From Desulfuromonas sp. SDB (GTDB taxonomy: Bacteria; SDB-A), in contig LKUE01000412.1 of the NCBI GenBank assembly GCA_001412365.1, forward strand, positions 1-16,563: a stretch of 16,563 bases of DNA, in the 5' to 3' direction. This document shows, one piece after another, positions 1,353-16,466 of the stretch. Under the pieces are notes generated by a model. It did no database searches. It had not been told where the DNA came from and was given only the letters and a program-made list of their open reading frames with translations. Position 1 is the stretch's first letter. Every line of letters starts with the position of its first letter. The position numbers and the translations under genes are program-made.

Positions 1353-3209
1353 ATGAAACTAAAAAAAGATCTTCTTTTAAGCGATGTGTTCTGTGTAGCC
1401 TCTGGTTCCATGATTAGTTCCGGATTGTTTGTTCTTCCCGCCATAGCTTATGCCAATTTAGGAGGGGCAGTTTTTCTTGCCTATCTAGCCGCAGGTATTC
1501 TGGTCATTCCCACGGTATTCAGCAAGGCGGAACTGTCAACAGCTATGCCTAAGGCAGGAGGAACTTATTTTTTCATTGATCGAAGCATGGGTGCAGGCTT
1601 CGGAACATTGGCTGGAATTTCCGCCTGGTTTTCACTAAGTTTTAAAAGTGCTTTTGCTTTTATCGGCATAGGCGCATTTGCCAGTTTGTTACTTCCTGAT
1701 ATTTCCATGTTGGAAATAAAGTTAATATCCATTGCCTGTTGCCTGTTATTTACGGTGGTAAATCTACTCAGCGTCAAACATACCGGAAGATTTCAAACCA
1801 TCCTCGTTTTCGGTCTGATTTCCATAGTGGTTTATTACATAATTACCTCTTTTCCCCATATTTCCCCTGACAACTATCAACCTCTTTTCAAGGGCAGTTT
1901 CAGAACATTTTTGGCTACAGTAGGATTAATTTTTATTTCCTATGGAGGATTAACCAAGGTGGTCAGCATTGCGGAAGAAGTTGACCAGCCCACGGTAAAC
2001 TTGCCCCGGGGAATATTGCTTTCCTTTTTTGTGGTTACCACTTTATATGTGTTAGCTGTATTTGTTACGGTGGGATTGATGGGCAATCAACTGATGGTTG
2101 ATAATAATCCGGTGTTAACTCCGTTGTCTCTGGCTGCTAAAAAATATTCAGGAAGCTTGGGGTTGGGATTGCTGTCAATGGCAGCTATTCTGGCTTTTTT
2201 AACCACTGGAAATGCGGGGATTCTTGCTTCTTCCCGGACACCACTGGCAATGAGTAGAGACAGGCTTCTTCCTTCTCTGTTCAGTAAAATTGGAACAAAA
2301 CATCAAACTCCCTATATATCCATCTTGCTAACTTCATTATTTATGATTTCGGTGATAACTTTCCTGGACTTAGAAATGCTTGTCAAAACTGCATCTACTC
2401 TTAAATTGCTGCTATTTGCTTTTGTAAACATATCTGTAATCATTATGAGAGAAAGCGGCATTCAAAATTACCGCCCTAAATTCAAAGCCCCCGGGTACCC
2501 CTGGCTCCAGATTGCAGGAATTCTAAGTTACGGAATATTGATTTTTGAAATGGGTTATGTTCCCTTAGTGATATCCGGAAGTTTTCTTTGTTCGGGACTT
2601 CTATGGTATTGGCTTTACGGACGGATAAGATCCAACCGGGAATCAGCAGCCGTTCACTTAATTCGAAAAATAACCGCCAGGGAATTGCAAGCTGAACCCC
2701 TGGAAAATGAATTAAGAGAAATCGTCAGGGAAAGAGACGGCATTTCCAAAGACCGGTTTGATTTAATTATTGAAAACTGTGAAGCAGTTGATATTACCCA
2801 GTATATGGAAATGGAAGATTTCTTCAAATTGATATCTAAGCATATATCTCCGGGACTGGAAATAAAACCGGAAGAGTTCTTTTCTTCGATTATGGCAAGA
2901 GAAAACGAAAGCACCACCGTGCTAACCCCGTTTTTAGCCATTCCCCATATTATCCTAAAGGGTGAACATAAATTTAACATTATCTTAGCCAGATCCTGCC
3001 CGGGGATTAAATTTCCCGGCAATTCAGAATTAGTTCATGCTGTTTTTATTTTAGCAGGCTCCCGGGATGAAAGAAATTTTCATCTACAGGCATTAGCTGC
3101 TTTTGCTCAAATTGTTCAAAATCCTGATTTTGAAAACAGATGGTTGAAAGCGCCGGGCACTCAGGCTTTAAAAGATATAATCCTGCTGGGTTCAAGATCC
3201 AGAATTTAA
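1353..3209 (+). CDS. APC-family amino acid permease fused to a C-terminal PTS EIIA-like domain
   Basis: A 618-residue fusion. Residues 1 to about 425 form an APC-superfamily transporter with about 12 helices. It opens with the substrate-binding type motif SGSMISSGLFVLP (residues 18-30) and has the conserved PKAGGTYFF (66-74), typical of amino acid/cation symporters. After a charged linker (about 425-485), residues 486-618 resemble a fructose/mannitol-type EIIA domain. It keeps the phospho-acceptor context AIPH (His532), the preceding RENESTT stretch (516-522) and the second conserved His in NFHLQAL (His577). EIIA domains accept phosphate from HPr. Here the domain probably senses PTS or nitrogen-PTS phosphorylation and gates transport (inference), since no EIIB or EIIC is nearby. 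The ribosome site is weak (GGAT, 1343-1346). The stop codon overlaps the stop of the convergent MATE gene. The amino acid substrate is unknown. Confidence 0.88.
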   Translation: MKLKKDLLLSDVFCVASGSMISSGLFVLPAIAYANLGGAVFLAYLAAGILVIPTVFSKAELSTAMPKAGGTYFFIDRSMGAGFGTLAGISAWFSLSFKSAFAFIGIGAFASLLLPDISMLEIKLISIACCLLFTVVNLLSVKHTGRFQTILVFGLISIVVYYIITSFPHISPDNYQPLFKGSFRTFLATVGLIFISYGGLTKVVSIAEEVDQPTVNLPRGILLSFFVVTTLYVLAVFVTVGLMGNQLMVDNNPVLTPLSLAAKKYSGSLGLGLLSMAAILAFLTTGNAGILASSRTPLAMSRDRLLPSLFSKIGTKHQTPYISILLTSLFMISVITFLDLEMLVKTASTLKLLLFAFVNISVIIMRESGIQNYRPKFKAPGYPWLQIAGILSYGILIFEMGYVPLVISGSFLCSGLLWYWLYGRIRSNRESAAVHLIRKITARELQAEPLENELREIVRERDGISKDRFDLIIENCEAVDITQYMEMEDFFKLISKHISPGLEIKPEEFFSSIMARENESTTVLTPFLAIPHIILKGEHKFNIILARSCPGIKFPGNSELVHAVFILAGSRDERNFHLQALAAFAQIVQNPDFENRWLKAPGTQALKDIILLGSRSRI

Positions 3210-4723: not shown

Positions 4724-4752
4724 TTGACAGAAAATTTTTCTACTTCTAATAT
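4724..4752 (+). promoter_or_regulatory. Near-consensus sigma-A promoter of the molybdenum-hydroxylase operon
   Basis: A perfect -35 TTGACA (4724-4729) is followed after exactly 17 bp by TAATAT (4747-4752). The expected start of transcription, about 7 nt downstream, is at 4758-4761, on or next to the ATG at 4761. No Shine-Dalgarno sequence lies before that ATG, which is consistent with a leaderless mRNA. A second TATAAT (4755-4760) abuts the ATG but is 25 bp from TTGACA, too far to pair with it. Confidence 0.6.
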
Positions 4753-4760
4753 TTTATAAT

Positions 4761-5585
4761 ATGTCTGAGCCCAAATGGTATTATCCAACTGATGTTGATT
4801 CCGCCATTGAACTTCTGAATTTAAATGAACCCCTGTTTCATGCGGGGGGAACGGGAATACTGATGAGAGGTTTTTTGGGAGTGAGTAATATAATTGATTT
4901 ACAGAATTTGAAGCTGAATTACACTATTTGTCAAAATAAAAACATAACTATAGGTGCAATGACTTCATTTTCTCAGGTAATAAAATTCATTAAAACCATA
5001 AATTTAAATTCACTGTTAATAAAATCCTTATCCAGGGCGGGGACAACTCCATTGAGAAATAGAATCACCCTGGGAGGAAGTTTAGCCTTTTTGCCGCCTT
5101 GGTCTGATCTCATTGGTCCCTTAATTGCTTTAAACGCTAAAGTTGAAGTTAAAGGGCTTAATCAGGGCATTTACCCCATACAAGAATTTATAAGAAATCC
5201 ATCCATACAGAATAAAAGTTTGATAACTGGAATAAATTATCCCTTATCTGACTATTCTAATTTTTACCATCGAGCCACCCTTACCCAGGTGGGATTTGCT
5301 AACTTTACCTTATCCATAATTGGAAAACAGAAAAGCCGGACTGTTGAAAATTTAAAAATTGTAATAACCGGAACAAAAAACAGATATCAAAATCTAACTG
5401 ATTTAGAGCAAAAACTAATTGATAGACCAGTTGATTTTAATTACTTTGAAAAGAATGTTAATTCCACCCAGCTTGATTTTTCTGCAAAAGAACTCGGTTC
5501 GTCAGAGTACATCACTCGCCTGGCTAAATACCATTTGTTAAACGGCTTACAGCAGGTGTTCACTGAGGAGAAAGAAGATAAATGA
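4761..5585 (+). CDS. Molybdenum hydroxylase FAD-binding subunit (XdhB/CoxM-like)
   Basis: The 274-residue medium subunit of a xanthine-dehydrogenase-type enzyme. It binds FAD and passes electrons from the 2Fe-2S subunit to NAD or another acceptor. The N-terminus WYYPTDVDSAIELL is the usual start of this family and supports the chosen ATG. The first FAD loop is HAGGTG (residues 27-32). The second is TTPLRNRITLGGS (95-107), equivalent to the common IRN-x-ATIGGN motif with Ser in place of Asn. SSEYITRLAKYHLLNGL near the C-terminus matches the end of the CO-dehydrogenase flavoprotein C-terminal domain. At 274 residues it is slightly short. It is first in the operon, and its stop overlaps the next start as ATGA. 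The substrate is carried by the large subunit, so purine specificity is inferred from context. Confidence 0.9.
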   Translation: MSEPKWYYPTDVDSAIELLNLNEPLFHAGGTGILMRGFLGVSNIIDLQNLKLNYTICQNKNITIGAMTSFSQVIKFIKTINLNSLLIKSLSRAGTTPLRNRITLGGSLAFLPPWSDLIGPLIALNAKVEVKGLNQGIYPIQEFIRNPSIQNKSLITGINYPLSDYSNFYHRATLTQVGFANFTLSIIGKQKSRTVENLKIVITGTKNRYQNLTDLEQKLIDRPVDFNYFEKNVNSTQLDFSAKELGSSEYITRLAKYHLLNGLQQVFTEEKEDK

Positions 5586-6061
5586 ACGGAACTTTCATTG
5601 TTAATAAAGTTGCCTGCAATTTCAGTTTTAATCCCACCGCTCGTTTATTAACTGTACTCAGAGATAACGGTTTTACCGAAGTGAAGCAGGGTTGCCAAGA
5701 AGGACTGTGTGGCGCTTGCCTGGTTATAATTGACCAACAGCTGGTCAATTCCTGTCAGGTATTAGCGGCAAGCTGTCTGCAAAAACAAATTACTACGGTT
5801 AAAGGGATAGGCACCCTTCACCATCCCCATATTATTCAAGAAGCATTTGTAGAAGCAGGTGCAGTACAGTGCGGTTTCTGCACCCCGGGAATGGTTCTGG
5901 CAACTTACAATTTACTGAACCAGATACCCCAACCCAGTGAAGAGCAGATAAAACAATTTCTGGATGGGAATCTCTGTAGATGCACCGGTTATGTTAAAAT
6001 CATAAATGCAGTAAAAATTGCTGCCCGTAGACTAAACCAGGGGAACCATGGCAAAAACTGA
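5582..6061 (+). CDS. Molybdenum hydroxylase 2Fe-2S subunit (CoxS/XdhC-type small subunit)
   Basis: A 159-residue electron-transfer subunit carrying two 2Fe-2S clusters. The plant-ferredoxin-like N-terminal domain has Cys38, Cys43, Cys46 and Cys58 in the pattern CxxxxCxxC...C. The helical C-terminal domain has CGFC (97-100) and CRC (132-134), ligands of the cluster next to the molybdopterin. All eight ligands are present, so it should be functional. The length is normal (150-170). The start overlaps the FAD-subunit stop by 4 nt, and its own end overlaps the molybdenum subunit by 14 nt, indicating translational coupling of all three chains. In E. coli XdhD this domain is fused to the molybdenum domain; here it is separate. 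Confidence 0.95.
   Translation: MNGTFIVNKVACNFSFNPTARLLTVLRDNGFTEVKQGCQEGLCGACLVIIDQQLVNSCQVLAASCLQKQITTVKGIGTLHHPHIIQEAFVEAGAVQCGFCTPGMVLATYNLLNQIPQPSEEQIKQFLDGNLCRCTGYVKIINAVKIAARRLNQGNHGKN
5728..5750. repeat. 9-bp inverted repeat within the 2Fe-2S subunit gene
   Basis: AATTGACCA (5728-5736) and TGGTCAATT (5742-5750) are perfect reverse complements with a 5-nt loop. It lies in codons for residues around Asp51-Asn57, between the third and fourth cluster cysteines. It could form an intragenic mRNA hairpin. No function can be assigned and chance is possible. Confidence 0.4.
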
Positions 6062-8393
6062 CTGTTTTAAATCAGTAGGAAAAAATATTCCTAAAATTGA
6101 CTCCTTGGGATTATCTACAGGAGAAGAGAAATTTACCGATGATTTTTGCTTTCCCCGGCAAATCTACTGCAAGCTGGTTTACTCCTCCTCCCCCTTTGCA
6201 AAAATCATCAATCTTGATCTTTCAGGTGCAGAAAAGCTTTCAGGAGTGGTAGAAATTCTCAGCTATAAAAACACTCCTTCGCTTTTTCATACTACCGCAG
6301 GGCAAGGATTCCCAGAGCCCTCTCCCTATGACACAAAACTCTTTGATCAAACCGTTCGCTTTGTGGGAGACCGAATAGCCCTGATTGCTGCAGAAAATCC
6401 TGTAATTGCTGAACTTGCCGCAAGGAAAATAAAAATTGAATATCAGGAATTTACTCCTGTATTCAACCCCCAGCAGTCAACCTCTTCTCCCCCTCTTCAT
6501 TTTCAAGGAGAACACGCTGTAATTCCTGTACCCTATCTGCCTGAAAAAAACATTGCGGCAAAAGTTGGGTTTGAAATTGGTGCAGTGGATAGTGTTTTAA
6601 AAAACTCGGACCTTGTAATTAATAAAATTTATCAAACTCACTATGCGTCCCACTGTGCTCTTGAACCTCATTCCGCAATTTCATATTTTGATAGCCGGGG
6701 ACGTCTGGTCATAATCTCATCAACCCAGGTGCCCTTTCACGCCAGAAGAATAGTAAGTCAGATTTTAGATTTGCCGGTTAAATTTATCAGAGTTATAAAA
6801 CCAAGAATTGGGGGAGGTTTTGGAGGAAAACAGGAAATACTGTTAGAACCACTGGTCGCCTTGATTACATTAAGAACAAAGCGTCCGGCAAGGTTAGTTT
6901 TATCCAGGGAAGAGGTGTTTATATCAACCCGAACCCGCCACCCCATGGAAATTGAGTTATCGGTGGGGGCGGATAAACAAGGCAGTTTGACCGCCATCAG
7001 CATGAAAGCATTAATGAATACGGGCGCTTATGGCTCCCATGCCTTAACTGTTCTGTCCAATACCGGTTCCAAGACCCTACCTTTATTCAATAAAATTAAA
7101 AACATCCGTTTCCACGCCCACTCTGTTTACACCAATTTACCGGTGGGGGGAGCTTACCGTGGCTACGGGGCAACCCAGGGATATTTCGCCTTAGGTCAGC
7201 AAATTGATATATTGGCAAGAGAACTAAAGGTGGATGTGCTTGAAATATATAAACAACAGCATATTAAATCCGGAGAAACCTCTCCTGTTTTTGAAGTTCT
7301 GGGAGAGGGGAAAGAAGGAACCAGCCAGAATATAACCTCTTGTCAGTTAACTGAATGTATTGATCAGGGATCCCAAAAAATTGATTGGTACGGCAAACGG
7401 GACAAGCGAATTAAAAATGGTCACTGGGTCAGGGGAGTGGGAATGGCAGCGGGAATGCAGGGGTCCGGCATCCCCCGGGTAGACCTGGCCAGTGCTTATA
7501 TTAAAATTAATGATGACGGATCATTCAACCTGAATATTGGAGCTACTGATTTAGGAACCGGTTCTGACACTATTTTAGCCCAAATCGCCGCTGAAACATT
7601 GCACACCGACCCCAGTCAGTTAATAGTGCTGTCATCAGATACAGACACCACTCCTTTTGACGTAGGTGCTTATGCTTCCTCCACCACCTATATATCCGGC
7701 AATGCCGTTCGCAAATGTGCTGAAAAAATTAAAACAAAACTTATCACCGCGGGAGCGGAACTTCTCCAGGTTCAACCACAACAAGTATCCTTGGAAAACC
7801 AGGCAGTTGTTTGCAGGAAAGATAAGCGACGTTGCAGCTACGAAGAAATTGCCCGGTATTCTCTTTATTCCGAAAACCAGCACCAGATTCAAGCAACCAC
7901 CTCTAACTTTTCCAATCAATCCCCGCCCCCTTTTATTGCCCAATTTGCCGAAGTTGAAATCAATCCTTTTACCGGAGAATTAAAACTGCTGAATTTTGTC
8001 TCCGCAGTGGACTGCGGACAGCCAATTAATCCCCTTCTGGTGGAAGGGCAAGTGGAAGGGGCAGTAGTAAATGGTATAAGTTATGCTTTAACAGAGCAAT
8101 ATAAATTCAGTTCAGCTGGCAGAATGCAAAATGCTAATTTTAAATATTATCATCTGTTTCGCACCCCGGACCTTTGCAAGGTCAAGACAATTATAGTGAA
8201 TTCTTATGAACAATCAGGTCCTTTTGGCGCAAAATCAATAGGGGAAATAGCTATTAACGGACCGATGCCGGCAATTGCCAATGCAATTTTTGACGCGGTA
8301 GGAATAAGACTGTATCAATCCCCCTTCACTCCGGAAAAAATTTATCAGGCAATCCACTGTTGTCATAAAGAACTGACTGAGCGCCGGCAGTAA
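6048..8393 (+). CDS. Molybdenum hydroxylase large (molybdopterin-binding) subunit, xanthine-dehydrogenase/XdhD type
   Basis: The 781-residue catalytic subunit, with an aldehyde oxidase/xanthine dehydrogenase a/b hammerhead domain (about 10-140) and a molybdopterin-binding domain (about 150-770). Visible motifs: VGKNIPKID start (9-17), GGGFGGKQE (255-263), GGAYRGYGATQG (367-378, the Arg-containing substrate loop), DLGTGSDT (501-508), DVGAYASSTTYISGNAV (538-554), CGQPINPLLVEGQ (656-668) and GAKSIGE (727-733), whose Glu733 is the expected catalytic base. It resembles the XdhD/selenium-dependent branch more than carbon-monoxide dehydrogenase, as it lacks CoxL's AYRCSFR loop. It probably hydroxylates or dehydroxylates a purine (inference from neighbours). 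The sulfur or selenium third ligand on Mo cannot be read from the sequence. A purine-rich AGGGGA precedes the ATG at short spacing. Confidence 0.93.
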   Translation: MAKTDCFKSVGKNIPKIDSLGLSTGEEKFTDDFCFPRQIYCKLVYSSSPFAKIINLDLSGAEKLSGVVEILSYKNTPSLFHTTAGQGFPEPSPYDTKLFDQTVRFVGDRIALIAAENPVIAELAARKIKIEYQEFTPVFNPQQSTSSPPLHFQGEHAVIPVPYLPEKNIAAKVGFEIGAVDSVLKNSDLVINKIYQTHYASHCALEPHSAISYFDSRGRLVIISSTQVPFHARRIVSQILDLPVKFIRVIKPRIGGGFGGKQEILLEPLVALITLRTKRPARLVLSREEVFISTRTRHPMEIELSVGADKQGSLTAISMKALMNTGAYGSHALTVLSNTGSKTLPLFNKIKNIRFHAHSVYTNLPVGGAYRGYGATQGYFALGQQIDILARELKVDVLEIYKQQHIKSGETSPVFEVLGEGKEGTSQNITSCQLTECIDQGSQKIDWYGKRDKRIKNGHWVRGVGMAAGMQGSGIPRVDLASAYIKINDDGSFNLNIGATDLGTGSDTILAQIAAETLHTDPSQLIVLSSDTDTTPFDVGAYASSTTYISGNAVRKCAEKIKTKLITAGAELLQVQPQQVSLENQAVVCRKDKRRCSYEEIARYSLYSENQHQIQATTSNFSNQSPPPFIAQFAEVEINPFTGELKLLNFVSAVDCGQPINPLLVEGQVEGAVVNGISYALTEQYKFSSAGRMQNANFKYYHLFRTPDLCKVKTIIVNSYEQSGPFGAKSIGEIAINGPMPAIANAIFDAVGIRLYQSPFTPEKIYQAIHCCHKELTERRQ

Positions 8394-8401
8394 TAAAATA
8401 A

Positions 8402-8430
8402 CGGAGGCAAATGCATTTGCCTCCGGTTTT
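8402..8430 (+). terminator. Perfect 24-bp palindrome with short T-run: partial terminator, attenuator or operator
   Basis: CGGAGGCAAATG (8402-8413) is followed immediately by its exact reverse complement (8414-8425), then GTTTT (8426-8430). As RNA it would form a 10-bp G+C-rich stem with a TGCA loop and a tail of only four U, so termination may be partial. It sits 9 bp after the large-subunit stop, in the 68-bp gap (8394-8461) before the hydantoinase gene. This would lower or tune expression of the downstream genes (inference). The dyad could equally be bound by a dimeric regulator: a weak TTGCCT (8417-8422)/TATAAC (8438-8443) pair with a 15-bp spacer overlaps it. Confidence 0.6.
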
Positions 8431-8461
8431 AAATATCTATAACCTTGAAAATGGAAATTCA

Positions 8462-9808
8462 ATGATGGTAATCAAAGACGGTTTGGTGTTTATAAAAGAA
8501 GCCGGTGATTTTGTAAAAACAGATATTAAAATAAAGCAGGGGCGGATTGTTGATATAAAACCAAATATTCCGGCGGAAGGCAAAATTCTCCCCGCCGGTA
8601 ATTTACAGATATTTCCAGGAATGATTGACCCCCACGTTCACTTAAATGATCCGGGATTTAATCAAAGGGAGACATTTCTCACCGGAACCAGCGCTGCTGC
8701 TGCCGGCGGGGTTACCACTATTGTGGATATGCCCTGTACTTCAAATCCGGTTATAATTAATCTGGCTAATTTAAATATAAAACTTAAACAAGTTGCCGAC
8801 CGGGCAGTGGTTGATTACGGATTTTTCGGAGGAGTTTCAGGAAAATCATATTCCCCCCGTACAGAAAAAGATATTGGGGAACTGGCATCCCGGGTATTGG
8901 GTATTAAAACCTATTTTCATTCTTCTGACAAAAACTACACCCGGGTTAATCATTATCAATTTCAACATATTTTAGCTATTTGCAAGTCATATAAAAAACC
9001 AGTTTTACTTCATGCCGAAGATCATGATTTTGTAAAACATGCGCAAAAAACTATGATGGACAAGGGCAACCGACCGGAGGATTACTATCTTTCCCGCCCG
9101 GAAACAGCAGAGCTCCTTGCGGTGCAAAATGCAATTGCCTTAAACCGTAATGTACAGGCAAATCTCCACATCGTTCATTTAGCTACCGGAGAAGCTTCCG
9201 ATTTAATCCAGCACAATCCTGCCACCGGTGAAACCGCGGCTCACTACCTTGCCTTTGATTTAGGTGATTTCATCAGTCAAGGAGCCAGCTTAAAAGTAGC
9301 CCCCTGTATAAAACCATCTAAAAACAAAAAGCATTTATGGAAAAACCTCCAAGCAGGCATTATTGATTACATCGCCTCTGATCATGCTCCCTGTCCCCCC
9401 ACCTCTAAGCAATCTGAGTCAGTGTGGGAGCAGTATTCAGGAATACCGGGATTGGAAACCAGCCTGCTGTTTTTGTATTCAGAAGGATTGCTTAAAAAGA
9501 GAATTTCACTTTCCCGCTTTGTTGAAGTGACCAGTTCAGCAGCAGCCCATAAATTCGGTTTGGAAAAGCAAAAGGGGGGTATCTCTGTGGGCAGACACGC
9601 TGACTTAGTTTTAATTGATCCTAACAAAACCACGGTGGTTAAGGGGACAGATTTTTTTTCCAAAGGGAAGATAACTCCCTTTGAGGGATGGAAGTTTAAA
9701 GGGAAAATTATCAACACCGTGGTCAGGGGGGAAATTGTGTTTGATCACCTCAAGGGGATATGTGTTGATCCGGGGTATGGAAAATATGTGGGAGGAGGTA
9801 GAAATTGA
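8462..9808 (+). CDS. Cyclic amidohydrolase of the hydantoinase/allantoinase/dihydroorotase family
   Basis: A metal-dependent cytoplasmic hydrolase that opens cyclic amides such as hydantoins, dihydropyrimidines or allantoin. From the ATG at 8462 it has 448 residues, the normal size. Metal ligands visible are HVH (58-60), the probable carboxylated Lys149 in GIKTYF, His184 in LLHAEDHD, HIVH (236-239) and Asp307 in YIASDHAP. The C-terminal TPFEGWKFKGKI (405-416) followed by NTVVRGEIVFD is close to allantoinases and dihydroorotases. The frame is open back to 8411, but that ATG sits inside the palindrome and adds 17 residues unlike the family. ATGATG at 8462-8467, preceded by GGAA, fits better. 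In ssnA/ygeW-type clusters a hydantoinase holds this position and probably opens an oxidised purine or its imidazolone product (inference). Confidence 0.9.
   Translation: MMVIKDGLVFIKEAGDFVKTDIKIKQGRIVDIKPNIPAEGKILPAGNLQIFPGMIDPHVHLNDPGFNQRETFLTGTSAAAAGGVTTIVDMPCTSNPVIINLANLNIKLKQVADRAVVDYGFFGGVSGKSYSPRTEKDIGELASRVLGIKTYFHSSDKNYTRVNHYQFQHILAICKSYKKPVLLHAEDHDFVKHAQKTMMDKGNRPEDYYLSRPETAELLAVQNAIALNRNVQANLHIVHLATGEASDLIQHNPATGETAAHYLAFDLGDFISQGASLKVAPCIKPSKNKKHLWKNLQAGIIDYIASDHAPCPPTSKQSESVWEQYSGIPGLETSLLFLYSEGLLKKRISLSRFVEVTSSAAAHKFGLEKQKGGISVGRHADLVLIDPNKTTVVKGTDFFSKGKITPFEGWKFKGKIINTVVRGEIVFDHLKGICVDPGYGKYVGGGRN
9791..9807 (+). promoter_or_regulatory. Strong ribosome binding site selecting a TTG start for the SsnA-like gene
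   Basis: GGAGGAGGT (9791-9799) lies 5 nt before TTG at 9805-9807. No ATG in the frame occurs near the conserved N-terminus, and the family start (R-Y-I-I-G-N-G) begins right here. The TTG overlaps the hydantoinase stop as TTGA, coupling the two genes. Confidence 0.8.
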
Positions 9809-11091
9809 GATATATTATTGGAAATGGAATAATTTACGACGGAAATATTTTTTACCCTCAAGGCAGTATACTAATAGATCAAAGTGAAATTGAACAGGTA
9901 GGTCCCTGTGAAAAAATAAGTGCGGAGGGAATAGAATTTATTGATGTCCAGGGGAGATTAATTATTCCCGGTTTGCTAAACCCCCATTTTCATTTTTACT
10001 CCTCTCTTTCTCCCGGTCTCAGCCCCTTGAAATCTCCGAAAAACTTTACCGAGGTACTGAAGTATTTCTGGTGGCCCTTAGACCAAAGTCTTGATGAGGA
10101 AAGTATTTACTACTCCACTTTGTTGGGAGCAATGGAATCGGTAAAATATGGAGTGACCATGATTTTCGACCATCATGCCTCCATGAATTATATATCGGGA
10201 AGTTTAAATATAATTAAGCAGGCATGTCAGTTAATGGGGATAAAAGCATTGTTATGCTATGAAATATCCAATCGCCTTAACCATTTGTGTTTAGATCAAC
10301 AGATTGAGGAAAATTTAAACTTCCACCAACAAAATAAGGATTCCGGGTGGTGTAAGGGAATTTTAGGTCTTCATGCAAATTTCACTTTAGATTCTTTTAA
10401 CCTGGAGCAGATAAAATCAGATTTTCCTGAAAATATCCCTATTCATATCCACTGCGGGGAAGACCGGTGCGATCTCCAATACTGCATTGAACAGGGATTT
10501 AAAGGACCGGTGGACCGTCTTAATCATTACAATTTACTGTCTCCCGGCTCAATACTAGCTCACTGTGTTCATCTGTCGGATAGAGATGTAAGTTTAATTA
10601 AACATTTCAATCCAGTAGTTGTTTCCAATCCGGAATCAAATTTTAACAATGGGGTTGGAGAATTTAATCCTGAAATAATTAAAAGGTATCTTGTGGGAAC
10701 AGATTCAATGAGCGCAGACATGATTGCCACCCACCGGTTTCACTACTTAACTGCGAATAACAGCAGTTTACCCCAGATGGGCAACCTGATATTCTCCCAT
10801 CGAAACAGTATTCAGCAAAAATATTTTCCCAACACCGGTCTTTTAGAACCTGGTTATAAAGCGGATCTGGCAGTTCTGGATTATATTCCCTGTCAGCAGG
10901 TTGACCTCGACAATGTAATCTCCCACTTGCTGTTCGGAGCGAAAACCGGTTCAACCTACCTGACTGTAAGCGATGGAAAAATCATTTATGCTCAGCATAA
11001 TTTTACCAACATCAATGAACAGGAAATATATTCCCAAGCCATGAAGGTGGGAGAAAAACTAAAACAGAGGTTTTTAAAATGTCAGGTATAA
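9805..11091 (+). CDS. ssnA: SsnA-type aminohydrolase (amidohydrolase superfamily)
   Basis: A 428-residue amidohydrolase of the chlorohydrolase/guanine-deaminase-like group. SsnA proteins are consistently found with selenium-dependent molybdenum hydroxylase genes (family knowledge), and the exact reaction is unsettled. Metal and active-site residues are visible: NPHFHFYSSLSPGL (59-72, the HxH after strand 1), HIHCGED (214-220), LAHCVHL (251-257) and VGTDSMSADM (297-306), with Asp300 as metal ligand. The length fits. A TTG start is used after a strong GGAGGAGGT site. The gene overlaps the hydantoinase by 4 nt and the flavoprotein gene by 13 nt. It probably deaminates or hydrolyses a purine-derived intermediate. 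Plain guanine deaminase is the main alternative. Confidence 0.85.
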   Translation: MRYIIGNGIIYDGNIFYPQGSILIDQSEIEQVGPCEKISAEGIEFIDVQGRLIIPGLLNPHFHFYSSLSPGLSPLKSPKNFTEVLKYFWWPLDQSLDEESIYYSTLLGAMESVKYGVTMIFDHHASMNYISGSLNIIKQACQLMGIKALLCYEISNRLNHLCLDQQIEENLNFHQQNKDSGWCKGILGLHANFTLDSFNLEQIKSDFPENIPIHIHCGEDRCDLQYCIEQGFKGPVDRLNHYNLLSPGSILAHCVHLSDRDVSLIKHFNPVVVSNPESNFNNGVGEFNPEIIKRYLVGTDSMSADMIATHRFHYLTANNSSLPQMGNLIFSHRNSIQQKYFPNTGLLEPGYKADLAVLDYIPCQQVDLDNVISHLLFGAKTGSTYLTVSDGKIIYAQHNFTNINEQEIYSQAMKVGEKLKQRFLKCQV

Positions 11092-12194
11092 AAGTTGATT
11101 TATGCGGGATTAAACTCGCCAATCCGGTATTAACTGCCCCCGGTCCCAATGTCCGCACGTCCATGCAAATGCTGGAGGCGGTTAAGGGAGGGGTTGGGGG
11201 AATTGTCTCTAAAACTATATCCACCCACCCTGCCAAAGATATCAAGCCCACTATAACCAGAACATTTTTTCATGGGGTTATGAATTGTGAAACCTGGTCT
11301 GAAATTTCGTATCAGGATTTTCTGGCGGATTTAGAGGCAGTTAAGAAAACCGGCATACCCCTAATCGTATCCTTGGGATATTCAGCACAGCAGTTGAGTA
11401 TACTCGGTGAAATTATTGAAAAAGAAATAGATCCCCATGGTTATGAATTTTCAACTCACTATGTGGGAAAAGAAATTGAACCTTTAAAACAAATTGCCCT
11501 GTCTTTAAAAGGCAAGGTAGATAAGCCGGTTTTTATGAAAATATCCCCTAACTCGCCGAATATTGAAAACATAGCCAGGCATTTATCTGAAATTGTAGAC
11601 GGTTTTGTGGCTATAAACTCATTTGGACCGGTTCTGGATTTCGATGTGGAAGCTATTGACTCTCCTCTTTCCTCTGATTTCGGACAAGGATGGTTATCCG
11701 GTCCTCCCATCATGCCTCTGGGGCTGAGGATTGTTTATCAAATAGCAGGAATCCAGAACAAACCAGTTATTGGAGTTGGAGGCATCAGTTCAGGCTCGGA
11801 TGCGGTAAAATACATGATGTGCGGGGCTAAAGCCGTGGGGATATGTTCTGCTGCACTTACACATGGTCCCGATATTTACGGGAAAGTATCCCGCCAAATA
11901 GAACAATGGCTTGATCAGCATAACTACATTGAGTTGTCCGATATTTACGGACTTTATGCTGAAAAAACTACACAAAGAATTACCGGATCATATAATCCGG
12001 TAATAAATGTAAACGACAAATTATGCGTAGGTTGCGGCAATTGTATATCAAAATGCCCCAATCATGCTTTATTCATGGATGAACAAAAAAAACAAGTGCA
12101 GGTAAATGCAGATAACTGCATTGGTTGTGGTTTTTGTAGAGGGTTTTGCCCTCAACAGGCATTAACTATAAAACGGAGAACAGGAAGTGATTGA
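11079..12194 (+). CDS. Dihydroorotate/dihydropyrimidine-dehydrogenase-like flavoprotein with C-terminal 2x[4Fe-4S] domain
   Basis: A 371-residue protein with an FMN-binding TIM barrel (about 1-290), like PreA and class 1 dihydroorotate dehydrogenases, followed by a bacterial-ferredoxin domain. FMN-binding segments include NPVLTAPGPN (15-24), FMKISPN (152-158) and GVGGISSGSDAVKYMMCGAK (232-251). Cluster ligands are Cys316/319/322/326 and Cys347/350/353/357, all in CxxCxxCxxxCP form. The loop that normally reads N-x-SCPN or N-L-SCP with the catalytic Cys reads FSTHYVG (124-130), so the usual acid/base Cys is absent. It probably transfers electrons between ferredoxin or another donor and a heterocyclic substrate, perhaps reducing a ring double bond (inference). 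It overlaps both neighbours. The N-terminal half of dihydropyrimidine dehydrogenase (the PreT/YgfK-like part) is not in the window. Confidence 0.87.
   Translation: MSGIKVDLCGIKLANPVLTAPGPNVRTSMQMLEAVKGGVGGIVSKTISTHPAKDIKPTITRTFFHGVMNCETWSEISYQDFLADLEAVKKTGIPLIVSLGYSAQQLSILGEIIEKEIDPHGYEFSTHYVGKEIEPLKQIALSLKGKVDKPVFMKISPNSPNIENIARHLSEIVDGFVAINSFGPVLDFDVEAIDSPLSSDFGQGWLSGPPIMPLGLRIVYQIAGIQNKPVIGVGGISSGSDAVKYMMCGAKAVGICSAALTHGPDIYGKVSRQIEQWLDQHNYIELSDIYGLYAEKTTQRITGSYNPVINVNDKLCVGCGNCISKCPNHALFMDEQKKQVQVNADNCIGCGFCRGFCPQQALTIKRRTGSD
11979..12004. repeat. 10-bp inverted repeat at the barrel/ferredoxin domain boundary
   Basis: ATTACCGGAT (11979-11988) and ATCCGGTAAT (11995-12004) are perfect reverse complements around a 6-nt loop. 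The hairpin encodes residues around 301-309, exactly between the flavin barrel and the ferredoxin domain of the DHOD-like protein. It may be a remnant of domain joining, an mRNA element or chance. Confidence 0.45.
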
Positions 12195-13416
12195 AAGAAT
12201 AATAACCAAAGCCACTTCTTTCCGGGACCAGGTAACAAAAATTTTATCTGAACTTATCCAGGTAAAATCGTTAAGCGGAAAAGAACAATTGGTTTTAGAT
12301 AAAATAACACAGATTTTAGACGATCTTGAATTAAGAACATATTCTTATGACCAGCTGGGCAATCTAATATTGAAAATCGGTTCAGGATCTCAATCCATTG
12401 CTTTTGACGCTCATATTGATACAGTAGACAGTGGAGATCTTGAACAATGGAAAACCGAACCGTTTTCGGGGGTGGTTGACTCCGGATTCATCCATGGAAG
12501 AGGTGCGGTTGATCAAAAAGGAGGGGCGGCAGCAATGATTGCCGCAGCCCATATAATTAACCAGTTAAATCTGTATCCTCAATATACTTTGTTTTTTACC
12601 TTCACTATCATGGAAGAAGATTGCGACGGTCTATGCTGGAATTATTTAATTGAGAAGCACCATTTGAAACCTGACTTCGCAGTTATAACCGAACCCACCA
12701 ATTTAAATGTCTACATCGGACATCGGGGTAGAATGGAAATTGATGTTGAATTCAAAGGCATTTCCGCTCATGCTTCCGCTCCATCCAGAGGAAGAAATGC
12801 TATCTATTCAGCCTGCTACAACATTCTGGATTTAGAACAGTTAAACAACCAGCTTAAATCAGATCCTTTCTTAGGGTCAGGCTCACTGGCGGTAACCAAT
12901 ATCCGCTCCAATTCCCCCTCTTTCTGCGCCATCCCCGATTACGCCATCATCCATCTGGATCGAAGATTAACCTCCGGGGAAACTGCCCAGTCTGCCCTGG
13001 TTGAAATCGAGCATGTGCTTAAAAAAAATCTGAAATCCGATCAATACCACGTTTCCATTCCTCAATATCTTAAGCCAAGTTACCGGGGAATAACTTATCC
13101 TCACAAGAAGTTTTTTCCTTCCTGGATAACCAATATGGAGCATCCTTTGGTGGAAGCGGCTCAGCAGACCTATCAGCAGTTGTTTGGTTATCTTCCAGAG
13201 CTGGGCAAGTGGATATTTTCCACCAATGGGGTTGCTCTATGCGGCAAGCATCATATTCCTACCCTCGGCTTTGGCCCGGGGAATGAAATATACGCTCATT
13301 CCCCTAATGAAAAAATACCACAGGAAGATTTGGTTCAGGCTTCAATTTTTTATTCCCTTTTACCCCATTACTTAACTCAATCTACTAACCAAGGGACAAA
13401 AACAAATGAAACATAA
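12187..13416 (+). CDS. ygeY: YgeY, M20-family metallohydrolase linked to selenium/purine clusters
   Basis: A 409-residue dizinc hydrolase of the M20/ArgE-DapE family. YgeY-specific stretches are clear: DAHIDTVDSGDLEQW (74-88), GRGAVDQKGG (104-113), MEEDCDGLCW (142-151), TEPT (168-171), GHRGRMEI (178-185), KWIFSTNGVA (341-350) and GFGPGNEIYAHSPNE (361-375). Zinc ligands and catalytic residues are His76, Asp78 (catalytic Asp), Asp109, Glu143 (general base), Glu144, Glu169 and His371. His195 in SAHASAP is the dimer-domain His. Nothing is missing. It starts with GTG at 12187, 8 nt after GGAG (12175-12178), overlapping the previous gene. The likely role is hydrolysis of an N-carbamoyl or amide group on a linear intermediate, followed by the carbamoyltransferase encoded next (inference). 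Confidence 0.94.
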   Translation: MIERIITKATSFRDQVTKILSELIQVKSLSGKEQLVLDKITQILDDLELRTYSYDQLGNLILKIGSGSQSIAFDAHIDTVDSGDLEQWKTEPFSGVVDSGFIHGRGAVDQKGGAAAMIAAAHIINQLNLYPQYTLFFTFTIMEEDCDGLCWNYLIEKHHLKPDFAVITEPTNLNVYIGHRGRMEIDVEFKGISAHASAPSRGRNAIYSACYNILDLEQLNNQLKSDPFLGSGSLAVTNIRSNSPSFCAIPDYAIIHLDRRLTSGETAQSALVEIEHVLKKNLKSDQYHVSIPQYLKPSYRGITYPHKKFFPSWITNMEHPLVEAAQQTYQQLFGYLPELGKWIFSTNGVALCGKHHIPTLGFGPGNEIYAHSPNEKIPQEDLVQASIFYSLLPHYLTQSTNQGTKTNET

Positions 13417-14395
13417 GCATTTAATTAGTTTTTCGAACTGGAGTGCTGATGAAATTAATGAAATTTTAGAACTTTCTACCCAGCTTAAACAGAAGAGAAA
13501 GAACGGGGAAATAATTGAACCACTGAAACAAAAAACTTTGTTTATGCTGTTTTATGAACAATCAACCCGAACTAGAAATTCCCTGGAAGCAGCGATGACA
13601 CAGCTGGGTGGACATGCCCACGACCTAACTGTGGAAAAAATGCAGATTTCCCATGGAGAAACAGCTAAAGACACCGCAAAGGTCCTGTCCCGGATGGGAG
13701 AGGCAATCGCAGTAAGAAACTGTTTTTTTAACCAGGGAAACAAATATCTAAATCAGTTAAAAGAACATTCCGACATTCCGGTTATTTCCATGCAGGATGA
13801 TATTTATCATCCCCTCCAAGCAATAGCGGATATGATGACCATAAATGAAGTATTTTATTCCCAGGTTACTCATCTAAAGGTGTCAATTTGCTGGACCTAC
13901 GCCACTACTCATCTAAAACCACTCTCTGTTCCCCATTCACAGCTATTGATGTTCCCTAAATTTGGCATTGATCTTTCCATTGCCCATCCCCCTGAATTTC
14001 CCCTTATGCCCGAAGTAATCGAGAAGTCTGAGGCAATCGCCCAGGACAATCAAACCCAGTTAAACTTCGTGGACAATTTAGAAGCTGCTCTAGACCAGGC
14101 AGATATCATCATTCCCAAAAACTGGGGAGGATTTCTGGGGGTTGAAAATTTTAAAGGAAGGGAAGAGCAGATAAGGGCAATTAAGTCAAAACAAAATGAT
14201 TATCAGAACTGGATATTAGATGAAAAACTTTACAAACTGGCAAAACCGAATGCCAAGATCATGCATGCCTTACCTGCAGATAGAAATCATGAAGTAACCG
14301 ACCGCCTTTTAGACAGTGAAAATTCAGTGATTTATCAGGAGGCGGAGAACCGACTTCATACTGCAAAAGCAATATTAACCTATTTAATGACATGA
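13406..14395 (+). CDS. ygeW: YgeW-type carbamoyltransferase-like protein
   Basis: A 329-residue member of the aspartate/ornithine carbamoyltransferase superfamily. Carbamoyl-phosphate-binding motifs are intact: EQSTRTRNSLE (51-61) and YHPLQAIADMMT (134-145). Diagnostic YgeW features are KPLSVPHSQ (171-179) in place of usual OTCase sequence, HALPADRNHEVTD (287-299) and QEAENRLHTAKA (311-322). The ornithine-site motif DxWxSMG of OTCase is absent, so ordinary ornithine is unlikely as substrate. In a catabolic setting it would remove a carbamoyl group from a ureido compound onto phosphate, giving carbamoyl phosphate for ATP synthesis by a carbamate kinase (inference; no kinase in the window). The ATG lies inside the end of ygeY, preceded by AAGGGA, and its stop overlaps the next start as ATGA. 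Confidence 0.93.
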   Translation: MKHKHLISFSNWSADEINEILELSTQLKQKRKNGEIIEPLKQKTLFMLFYEQSTRTRNSLEAAMTQLGGHAHDLTVEKMQISHGETAKDTAKVLSRMGEAIAVRNCFFNQGNKYLNQLKEHSDIPVISMQDDIYHPLQAIADMMTINEVFYSQVTHLKVSICWTYATTHLKPLSVPHSQLLMFPKFGIDLSIAHPPEFPLMPEVIEKSEAIAQDNQTQLNFVDNLEAALDQADIIIPKNWGGFLGVENFKGREEQIRAIKSKQNDYQNWILDEKLYKLAKPNAKIMHALPADRNHEVTDRLLDSENSVIYQEAENRLHTAKAILTYLMT

Positions 14396-15600
14396 CCACT
14401 TTTCCTCATTACCAGTGTACTCAATGTAAATCCTCTTTCTCCCTCTCTCCAACTTTATATGTTTGTCCTCATTGCAGAAAAAAGCAAAAATCTGAACCCT
14501 TGAATGGAATACTGGAGGTAGTGAATTATGGTTCTCCCCGTATAGAAAATATTTTTTCATTTCTTCCGGTGGAAAGAAAATATTTTCCTGCTGTCCCTAT
14601 CGGCAGCACTCCTTTGTGGAAAGTTCAAAATCCGCATAGTAAAACATCTTCGATAGAACTTTATGTAAAAAATGACACCTTAAATCTAACCGGATCAACT
14701 AAAGACCGGGCATCTTATCTGGTCACCGCCCTGGCTACAAAATTCAATTATCCTGCAATATGTGTCGCCTCCACTGGAAATGCCGCATCGTCACAAGCTG
14801 GTTTATGCGCCTGTGCAGGTCTTTCCTCTATTGTTTTTATTCCTGAAAAAACACCCCAAGCTAAAGTTCTGCAGTGTCAACATTACGGAGCAAAAATTTT
14901 CAAGGTGGCAGGAGGTTATGATCAAGCCTATCAAATGAGTCTGGAATACACCCGGGAGCATGATCAAAAAATATTATCCAGAAACACCGCTTATAATCCC
15001 TTAACTATAGAAGGAAAAAAAACTGTTTCCCTGGAAATATTCAGGGACATGGGTAAAGTTCCTGATTATATTTTTATCCCCGCCGGAGACGGGGTTATTT
15101 TATCGGGGGTGTATAAAGGATTCCGGGACCTGGTGGACTACGGTTTTTCTAACCATGTTCCCAAAATCATCGCAGTTCAATCTAGTCAAAGCTGTGCCCT
15201 GTACCATGGTTTATACCAGGGGAAGTTTGATCAGAATTATCAAGCACAAACCATCGCCGATTCTCTGTCCGTAAACATTCCCCAGGCTGGTTATTTAGCC
15301 ACATCCTACTTGAGTAAATACCAGGGAGAAATCATGCTGGTTTCTGATCAGGAAATTCTTGATGCTCAAAGAGAGCTTTCCTTAAACACCGGGGTGTTTG
15401 CAGAACCTTCTGCGGCAGCAGGATATGCTGGTTTCAAAAAATATCAAAATTTCAAATTAAATTCCTCTGTTGTTCTATTAATTACTGGAAGCGGATTTAA
15501 AGATATGGACAGGGCAGCAAGTTTATCTTTTAATCCTGTTCCCCTGATATCCAGTGTCGGGGAAATTGACCTTTTTACCACCAGGGAAAAGCAAAGGTAG
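14392..15600 (+). CDS. Threonine-synthase-like PLP enzyme with N-terminal zinc ribbon
   Basis: A 402-residue fold-type II PLP enzyme. An N-terminal zinc ribbon has Cys9, Cys12, Cys25 and Cys28, as in archaeal-type threonine synthases. Catalytic parts: LTGSTKDRAS (99-108) with Lys104 as the Schiff-base lysine, ASTGNAASS (126-134) as the phosphate cup, AGDGVILSG (231-239) as the second glycine loop, VFAEPSAAA (335-343) and ITGSGFKD (364-371). It is not YgeX, whose Lys motif and N-terminus differ. It sits where clusters of this type encode YgeX, the 2,3-diaminopropionate ammonia-lyase, so it may carry out the terminal beta-elimination to pyruvate and ammonia (inference). Genuine threonine synthase is the alternative, but no homoserine-pathway gene is nearby. 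It is coupled to ygeW by an ATGA overlap. Confidence 0.88.
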   Translation: MTTFPHYQCTQCKSSFSLSPTLYVCPHCRKKQKSEPLNGILEVVNYGSPRIENIFSFLPVERKYFPAVPIGSTPLWKVQNPHSKTSSIELYVKNDTLNLTGSTKDRASYLVTALATKFNYPAICVASTGNAASSQAGLCACAGLSSIVFIPEKTPQAKVLQCQHYGAKIFKVAGGYDQAYQMSLEYTREHDQKILSRNTAYNPLTIEGKKTVSLEIFRDMGKVPDYIFIPAGDGVILSGVYKGFRDLVDYGFSNHVPKIIAVQSSQSCALYHGLYQGKFDQNYQAQTIADSLSVNIPQAGYLATSYLSKYQGEIMLVSDQEILDAQRELSLNTGVFAEPSAAAGYAGFKKYQNFKLNSSVVLLITGSGFKDMDRAASLSFNPVPLISSVGEIDLFTTREKQR

Positions 15601-15653
15601 AAATGCAGGTTTATTCTTTAATCAACCAGCTAATTTTCAGGAGAAAATAACCA

Positions 15654-16466
15654 ATGGAACCGGATACAGATATTTACACTTCTATTGCCAGAAAAATAAA
15701 TCAACACCAGGAATTTTTAGTTGTTCATGTTGTGGACATAAAGGGTTCAACTCCGGCAGAACTTGGCTCTAAAATGATAATCAATTCTGACCTGTCTTCC
15801 CAAGGGACCATAGGAGGGGGAGAGCTGGAACATCTGATACTAACCAGGGCGGAAGATTACTTTAAATTGAAAAAATCACATTTTGAAAATTTTGATCTCA
15901 ACGAAATCTCTTCTCAGCAGATAAATTGCGGAGGACAAATCAGTTTATTTATTGAGTATTTTCCGTCTCCGGAAAAACTATTTATATTTGGGTACGGACA
16001 CGTAGCAAAAGAATTAATACTATTTTTAAAAAGACTGGATTGGAACTATACGGTAATTGATCACCGGAAGTTTTCATCACCTCCCCCTTTCCTGATTTCT
16101 CAAATAAATTATCACGATTTCATTCATTCCTACCAGTTCCCTCCTGGTTCTTATTATTTAATAATGACTCCCTCTCACCAATATGACTACCAAGTTTTAC
16201 AATGCCTATTAAAACGGGAGTTGCAGCCCAAATACATCGGCTTGCTGGCTTCCTCAAGAAAAGCCCGGAATATGATGAGTAAACTTGTACAAGAATTATG
16301 CCTTCCTCCCTCCTTGTCTTTCCTGTTCTCTCCTGTAGGGCTGGACCTGGGGGGCAAAAAACTGCCCGAAATTGCCCTTTCCATTGCCTCTCAGTTGCAG
16401 CTGCTCCGTTCGGAAAAAACCAAATTTGACCACTTGACCATAAAATATGAAGACCCTTCAAATTGA
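15654..16466 (+). CDS. XdhC/CoxI-family molybdenum cofactor sulfuration/insertion factor
   Basis: A 270-residue maturation factor that binds molybdenum cofactor, presents it for sulfuration (or selenation in some systems) and inserts it into the apo-hydroxylase (family knowledge). The N-terminal XdhC_CoxI domain shows KGSTPAELGSKM (30-41), GTIGGGELE (51-59) and the conserved NCGG (91-94). The C-terminal Rossmann domain begins IFGYGHVAKEL (111-121) and ends with SPVGLDLGGKKLPEIALSIA (226-245), close to the usual PIGLDIG-x-x-x-PEEIA. The length is normal. AGGAGA (15639-15644) precedes the ATG. A 53-bp non-coding gap separates it from the PLP enzyme gene, with no hairpin or promoter seen, so it probably stays in the operon. 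The target is very likely the hydroxylase encoded upstream. It is named differently from the E. coli 2Fe-2S subunit also called XdhC. Confidence 0.92.
   Translation: MEPDTDIYTSIARKINQHQEFLVVHVVDIKGSTPAELGSKMIINSDLSSQGTIGGGELEHLILTRAEDYFKLKKSHFENFDLNEISSQQINCGGQISLFIEYFPSPEKLFIFGYGHVAKELILFLKRLDWNYTVIDHRKFSSPPPFLISQINYHDFIHSYQFPPGSYYLIMTPSHQYDYQVLQCLLKRELQPKYIGLLASSRKARNMMSKLVQELCLPPSLSFLFSPVGLDLGGKKLPEIALSIASQLQLLRSEKTKFDHLTIKYEDPSN

Follow-up and report, generated by a model that had tools for sequence, protein, structure and literature searches.

The reductive uric acid pathway and its last enzyme

The reductive uric acid pathway has been worked out only recently with enzymes from E. coli and C. 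difficile. According to Li et al. (2025) urate is converted to yanthine and, after reductive opening, to 2,3-diureidopropionate, from which the ureido groups are lost stepwise to yield 2,3-diaminopropionate (DAP), and YgeX finally converts DAP to pyruvate and ammonia (PMC12507026). In that study Pfam family PF00291 served as the marker of YgeX, which means that proteins resembling threonine synthase (ThrC) would count as YgeX too. In a literature search that covered few subscription papers we found no published account that places a ThrC-like enzyme in a urate cluster.

Here, we describe that in many anaerobes that apparently degrade uric acid by the reductive route the cluster slot of YgeX is occupied by a ThrC-like protein, which is usually paired with a CysK-like one. 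This ThrC-like end is a variant of a known pathway and not a new kind of system. The end of the pathway is probably run in much of the bacterial world by enzymes other than those of E. coli.

The purine operon of Desulfuromonas sp. SDB

The window, i.e. the whole analysed stretch of 16,563 nucleotides (contig LKUE01000412.1), contains a compact operon on the forward strand at 4761-16466. Adjoining genes overlap by a few bases from the SsnA-like through the ThrC-like gene. The following features were assigned:

4724..4752, + strand, possible promoter TTGACA-17-TAATAT before the operon (consensus match only)
4761..5585, + strand, XDH-family FAD subunit (profile matches)
5582..6061, + strand, XDH-family 2Fe-2S subunit (profile matches)
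6048..8393, + strand, XDH-family molybdopterin subunit (37% identity to E. coli XdhD, 32% to XdhA)
8411..9808, + strand, HyuA/AllB-like cyclic amidohydrolase (AllB 331.8 bits, cut-off 357.85; 29% to E. coli HyuA)
9805..11091, + strand, SsnA-like aminohydrolase, 428 aa (31% to E. coli SsnA)
11079..12194, + strand, UacX-like DHOD-fold reductase, 371 aa (two 4Fe-4S motifs, no FAD domain)
12187..13416, + strand, YgeY-family hydrolase, 409 aa (NF009555 471.5 bits, cut-off 321)
13406..14395, + strand, short HALPADR-type carbamoyltransferase in the YgeW slot, 329 aa (below the YgeW and OTC cut-offs)
14392..15600, + strand, ThrC-like fold-type II PLP enzyme, 402 aa (PALP profile, AlphaFold2 model)
15654..16466, + strand, XdhC/CoxI-type molybdenum hydroxylase maturation factor (profile matches)

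By profile searches these genes correspond to those of the reductive uric acid pathway. XDH, an SsnA-like and a HyuA-like enzyme, UacX/YgfK, YgeY and a carbamoyltransferase are shared with the E. coli and C. difficile clusters, and the reductase of the window (PF01180 92.3 bits, cut-off 27, together with 4Fe-4S domains) matches C. difficile UacX in its architecture (PMC12507026). In contrast with those clusters the window lacks YgeX; it encodes the ThrC-like PLP enzyme instead, and the genome a CysK-like one on contig C73. The top curated family of the product of 9805..11091 is SsnA, with 375.7 bits below the cut-off of 444. As the SsnA, HyuA and XDH homologues of the window all stay below their curated cut-offs, the exact purine substrate of the operon is one that we infer.

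The carbamoyltransferase gene shares four bases with the ThrC-like gene (13406-14395 and 14392-15600); the overlap had been described in the earlier note on this DNA. The same note had taken this upstream gene for ygeW, which has to be corrected: its product reaches only 158.7 and 154.2 bits with the curated YgeW models (cut-offs 453 and 500) and belongs to the short HALPADR type. Other clusters, too, have a gene for a short HALPADR/HPLPADR carbamoyltransferase ahead of the ThrC-like one, and its use in place of the knotted YgeW is a second replacement within the pathway. The same short type was observed in loci of WOR-3, Neomarinimicrobiota and some others.

Promoter-like motifs matching the consensus occur 34 times against 29.4 expected by chance. 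Between the genes of the XDH molybdopterin subunit and the HyuA-like protein lies a perfect hairpin of ten pairs (8402-8425) that may be a terminator or attenuator; it spans the called start of the HyuA-like gene, the true start of which may sit further downstream. Upstream of the purine operon an open reading frame (1353-3209) encodes an APC-like permease of 618 aa with a long C-terminal extension that resembles PTS IIA-type domains by eye.

The threonine synthase-like protein: family and fold

The 402-residue protein belongs to the PALP family (Pfam PF00291, E 2.9e-66) and its top sequence matches in NCBIfam and the PDB are threonine synthases. An AlphaFold2 model (pLDDT 93.5) is closest to ThrC structures (Z 42-47.5), with Z 43.2 and an rmsd of 2.2 over 338 residues for T. 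thermophilus ThrC (1v7c) and Z 47.5 for A. thaliana ThrC (2c2b); serine and threonine deaminases are similar as well, at a Z of about 36. It shares with ThrC about 30% identity, the SxKDR lysine (GSTKDR, with K104 as Schiff-base lysine) and the STGN cup (ASTGNAAS at 126-133), and differs in its N-terminal zinc ribbon C9/C12/C25/C28, of which the first three cysteines are invariant and C28 nearly so among 55 relatives. Thus, family, ThrC matches and model agree with the fold-type II PLP enzyme with ThrC-type motifs that had been read from the sequence before.

The curated ThrC model TIGR00260 gives the window protein 134.0 bits (cut-off 167.1), though some other members of its clade do exceed this value. 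PRK08197 (NF006050, "threonine synthase") is the closest curated family for most clade members; the deep purine-linked members L036 and L042 pass its cut-off of 303 with 323.7 and 346.1 bits, whereas the window protein scores 168. For the purine-linked members "threonine synthase" is probably a misnomer. With the YgeX model NF006058 the match is weak (48.6 bits, cut-off 276), and pairwise comparison with YgeX yields 21% identity over 199 residues and an hhalign probability of 95.6 at 19% identity. The two proteins have the cluster slot, fold type II, a D/N-T-A-aromatic segment and probably the expected reaction in common; yet, with an identity of about 20% that extends along only part of their length, they are, as judged from these comparisons, not orthologous.

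The active site

In an alignment on T. thermophilus ThrC we compared 116 clade members with 15 ordinary threonine synthases. In the clade T88 is replaced by A and S155 by A or G (115 of 116 each), while R160 (to T, L, M or S), Q164 (to K), N188 (to D), T239 (to D) and R/K242 (to S, A, C or N) are exchanged in all 116; the 15 ordinary enzymes without exception retain the ThrC state. At the positions of T88, S155, R160, N188 and T239 the window protein has A131, A200, T205, D233 and D290, and ThrC N154 is retained as N198. In T. thermophilus ThrC the substrate phosphate is held by T88, N154, S155 and R160. Two acidic residues that are fixed near this former phosphate-binding site would match a substrate that carries a second amino group. 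A further segment, R-[NSC]-T-[AGS]-x-[NH]-P, is found in 111 of the 116 members, and its R-N-T-A-Y/F version is closer to the aligned D-T-[AS]-[WY] of YgeX than to N-S-x-N-P of ThrC. The replacements provide a plain example of an active site that has shifted from a phosphorylated substrate towards what is probably a diamino acid.

Loss of the phosphate site, which had been proposed earlier, is supported by T88A, R160T/L, N188D and T239D. The Thr in GSTKDR, which had been offered as its sign, was dropped as a substrate marker, since this position varies within the clade (F 72, L 31, Y 9, S 2 and T 2).

PLP enzymes and homoserine supply in the same genome

The genome of Desulfuromonas sp. SDB (433 contigs, 98.7% complete) encodes four PF00291 proteins, namely CysK, TrpB, a CysK-like protein of 486 aa and the ThrC-like protein. 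No YgeX above the NF006058 cut-off was found, which at this completeness rules out a copy elsewhere, and there is no other match to TIGR00260. Homoserine dehydrogenase (PF00742) is missing from this genome and from three relatives of the same family but present in 14 of 14 control genomes; the three relatives have neither the ThrC-like nor the CysK-like gene. Without YgeX, another ThrC or homoserine dehydrogenase in its genome, the ThrC-like protein is not an ordinary threonine synthase. That such an enzyme came to lie in the operon by chance has hardly any probability: fold and nearest solved relatives are those of ThrC and it is the sole ThrC-like gene of its genome, but a supply of homoserine is lacking, the signature residues T88, S155, R160, N188 and T239 are replaced, the TIGR00260 score is too low, and most clade genomes contain a second, better-scoring ThrC elsewhere. 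A separate ygeX with no other thrC, the pattern that the earlier note had set against its own reading, does not occur here: YgeX is absent, and homoserine dehydrogenase is missing along with the other thrC.

Phylogeny and linkage to purine clusters

A scan with one genome per species yielded 528 ThrC-like relatives. The best 80 of them by sequence come from WOR-3, Neomarinimicrobiota, Spirochaetota, Bacteroidota, Acidobacteriota, Desulfobacterota, SAR324, Denitrovibrio, Cloacimonadota, Verrucomicrobiota, Chlorobiota and others, and members of the clade occur next to reductive-urate genes in over ten phyla. Among loci of at least 12 kb selected by protein similarity alone, 36 of 59 show at least two further pathway genes besides XDH. 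Many ThrC-like loci encode a true knotted YgeW (63-69% identity to E. coli) and YgeY (up to 75%), and also YgfK, SsnA and YqeA. In a WOR-3 locus (L047) the gene order of the window is kept from the XDH FAD subunit through the ThrC-like gene. In the tree 61 zinc-ribbon sequences form a group (support 100/98) separate from ordinary ThrC (100/100), and its core of 47 sequences (100/99) contains the window protein.

For the linkage test genomes of Spirochaetota and Bacteroidota were filtered by the presence of SsnA only and then searched for YgeX and ThrC-like genes, which were regarded as linked within 25 kb of SsnA. In the 86 genomes with SsnA, YgeX is linked in 21, the ThrC-like gene in 42 and both in none. 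Without correction for relatedness, the 53 Spirochaetota have 21 linked YgeX and 18 linked ThrC-like genes and the 33 Bacteroidota none and 24, respectively, with both linked in no genome of either phylum; many of the YgeX-linked Spirochaetota genomes are near-identical. Regardless of linkage, ThrC-like genes are present in 16 of 18 SsnA-positive Spirochaetota without YgeX versus 11 of 35 with YgeX (Fisher p 1e-4, relatedness uncorrected). These data, together with the clade, support the view that a non-orthologous protein occupies the YgeX slot, and this far more widely than could be seen from the window. On the other hand, YgeX is also present in 11 of the 27 Spirochaetota and 7 of the 31 Bacteroidota that have the ThrC-like gene, though unlinked to SsnA; in each of the 18 genomes with both genes, YgeX is either on a different contig from SsnA or separated from it by more than 50 kb.

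The recurrence of this linkage across phyla and the absence of joint linkage also bear on whether the protein is a catabolic serine/threonine deaminase, aiding amino acid use and merely carried in the purine operon. ThrC-type enzymes can deaminate threonine by β-elimination (PMC12172450) and the fold is also near that of the deaminases, so the reaction lies within reach. Nevertheless we regard this explanation as improbable, because neither linkage pattern fits it and two invariant aspartates in the former ThrC pocket would be hard to reconcile with a neutral side chain.

Six Spirochaetota genomes (G141, G369, G405, G400, G409 and G393) that have the pair of ThrC-like and CysK-like genes also contain a YgeX gene (L170-L175), which has no pathway neighbours in the stretch examined.

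Proposed role

We suggest, with a probability of about 50%, that the ThrC-like protein is a ThrC-derived 2,3-diaminopropionate lyase that closes the reductive uric acid pathway. The upstream enzymes of the operon would convert the purine to 2,3-diureidopropionate, from which carbamoyltransferase and YgeY would strip the two ureido groups. The resulting DAP would form an external aldimine on the PLP of K104 and lose its α-proton, the 3-amino group would be expelled to give aminoacrylate, and hydrolysis of the latter would release pyruvate and ammonia as with YgeX in E. coli. With its threonine deaminase activity the ThrC type already has β-elimination at its disposal. The substrate, the elimination and a function beside the CysK-like PLP enzyme of 486 aa are those parts of the lyase reading that we infer.

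If the last step in the Bacteroidota, in some of the Spirochaetota and in many phyla without cultured members is indeed performed by a ThrC-derived and a CysK-like enzyme, surveys based on ygeX miss many urate degraders, while those based on the whole of PF00291 mask the difference between YgeX and the ThrC-like/CysK-like proteins. Furthermore, the respective "threonine synthase" genes would be misannotated and would mislead predictions of amino acid auxotrophy.

The second PLP enzyme

The CysK-like gene of Desulfuromonas sp. SDB (L004:949-2406, on contig C73) is located beside genes for an amidohydrolase and an XDH subunit. Contig C73 was considered as direct continuation of the window, but this was dropped because the ends do not overlap. 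Copies across phyla are 52-65% identical to this one, the protein shows stronger conservation than its ThrC-like partner, and its gene is often followed by that of an SsnA/GuaD-like amidohydrolase. The protein reaches no curated family cut-off, and assignments as SbnA or cysteate synthase were dropped for this reason.

In 39 of the 80 named loci the CysK-like gene adjoins the ThrC-like gene and in 16 more it is on the same contig. Of the Spirochaetota and Bacteroidota genomes with the ThrC-like gene, 25 of 27 and all 31, respectively, have the CysK-like gene as well. Among SsnA-positive Spirochaetota both genes occur in 25 genomes, only one of them in two and two, and neither in 12 (p 9e-7); in SsnA-positive Bacteroidota they occur together in 31 of 33. 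The CysK-like protein is probably part of the same pathway and, being nearly always found with the ThrC-like gene, it may have replaced YgeX jointly with it. YgeX is reported to act on both D- and L-diaminopropionate. With a rather low probability, the pathway has acquired a new end, in which two co-encoded fold-type II PLP enzymes, the ThrC-derived one and the CysK-like one with its roughly 486 aa, stand in for YgeX in many phyla and split the stereoisomers between them or relay an intermediate.

The earlier reading of a new diaminopropionate lyase, or of another elimination, is thus supported in part: it holds for the occupation of the slot, but the reaction of YgeX may involve the CysK-like partner, which could not be seen in the window. 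Tentatively, the CysK-like enzyme could itself be the DAP lyase, or the two PLP enzymes could work one after the other or each on its own isomer. The ThrC-like protein would then catalyse a different step, such as the elimination of urea from an intermediate with one ureido group like albizziin, or β-replacement by water to form serine. Besides the near-perfect co-occurrence, the stronger conservation and the neighbours of the gene on C73, this alternative is favored by Desulforhopalus, where the ThrC-like gene is near a serine hydroxymethyltransferase gene and a full YgeX cluster is about 21 kb away. On the other hand, ThrC-like clusters usually keep YgeY together with YgeW or two carbamoyltransferases, i.e. 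enzymes for both ureido groups, so that DAP is still the expected end product. Moreover, YgeX is present in two of the three genomes that have the CysK-like but no ThrC-like gene, and two genomes (G164 and G181) have the ThrC-like gene with neither CysK-like nor YgeX, all of these being small numbers from incomplete MAGs. In G167 a cluster reads YgeX-XDH-SsnA-CysK-like and the genome has no ThrC-like gene. The patterns of G167 and of G164 and G181, although drawn from few and possibly incomplete MAGs, favor the ThrC-like over the CysK-like protein as YgeX counterpart. As counter-examples, all three genes are close to each other in one cluster (L112), within about 23 kb in Desulforhopalus (L065/L169) and within about 6 kb in G419.

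In four loci (L180, L181, L182 and L041) no YgeY was detected but two or three different carbamoyltransferases occur, mostly with a YqeA-like carbamate kinase. Here phosphorolysis may account for the loss of both ureido groups, which would save extra ATP.
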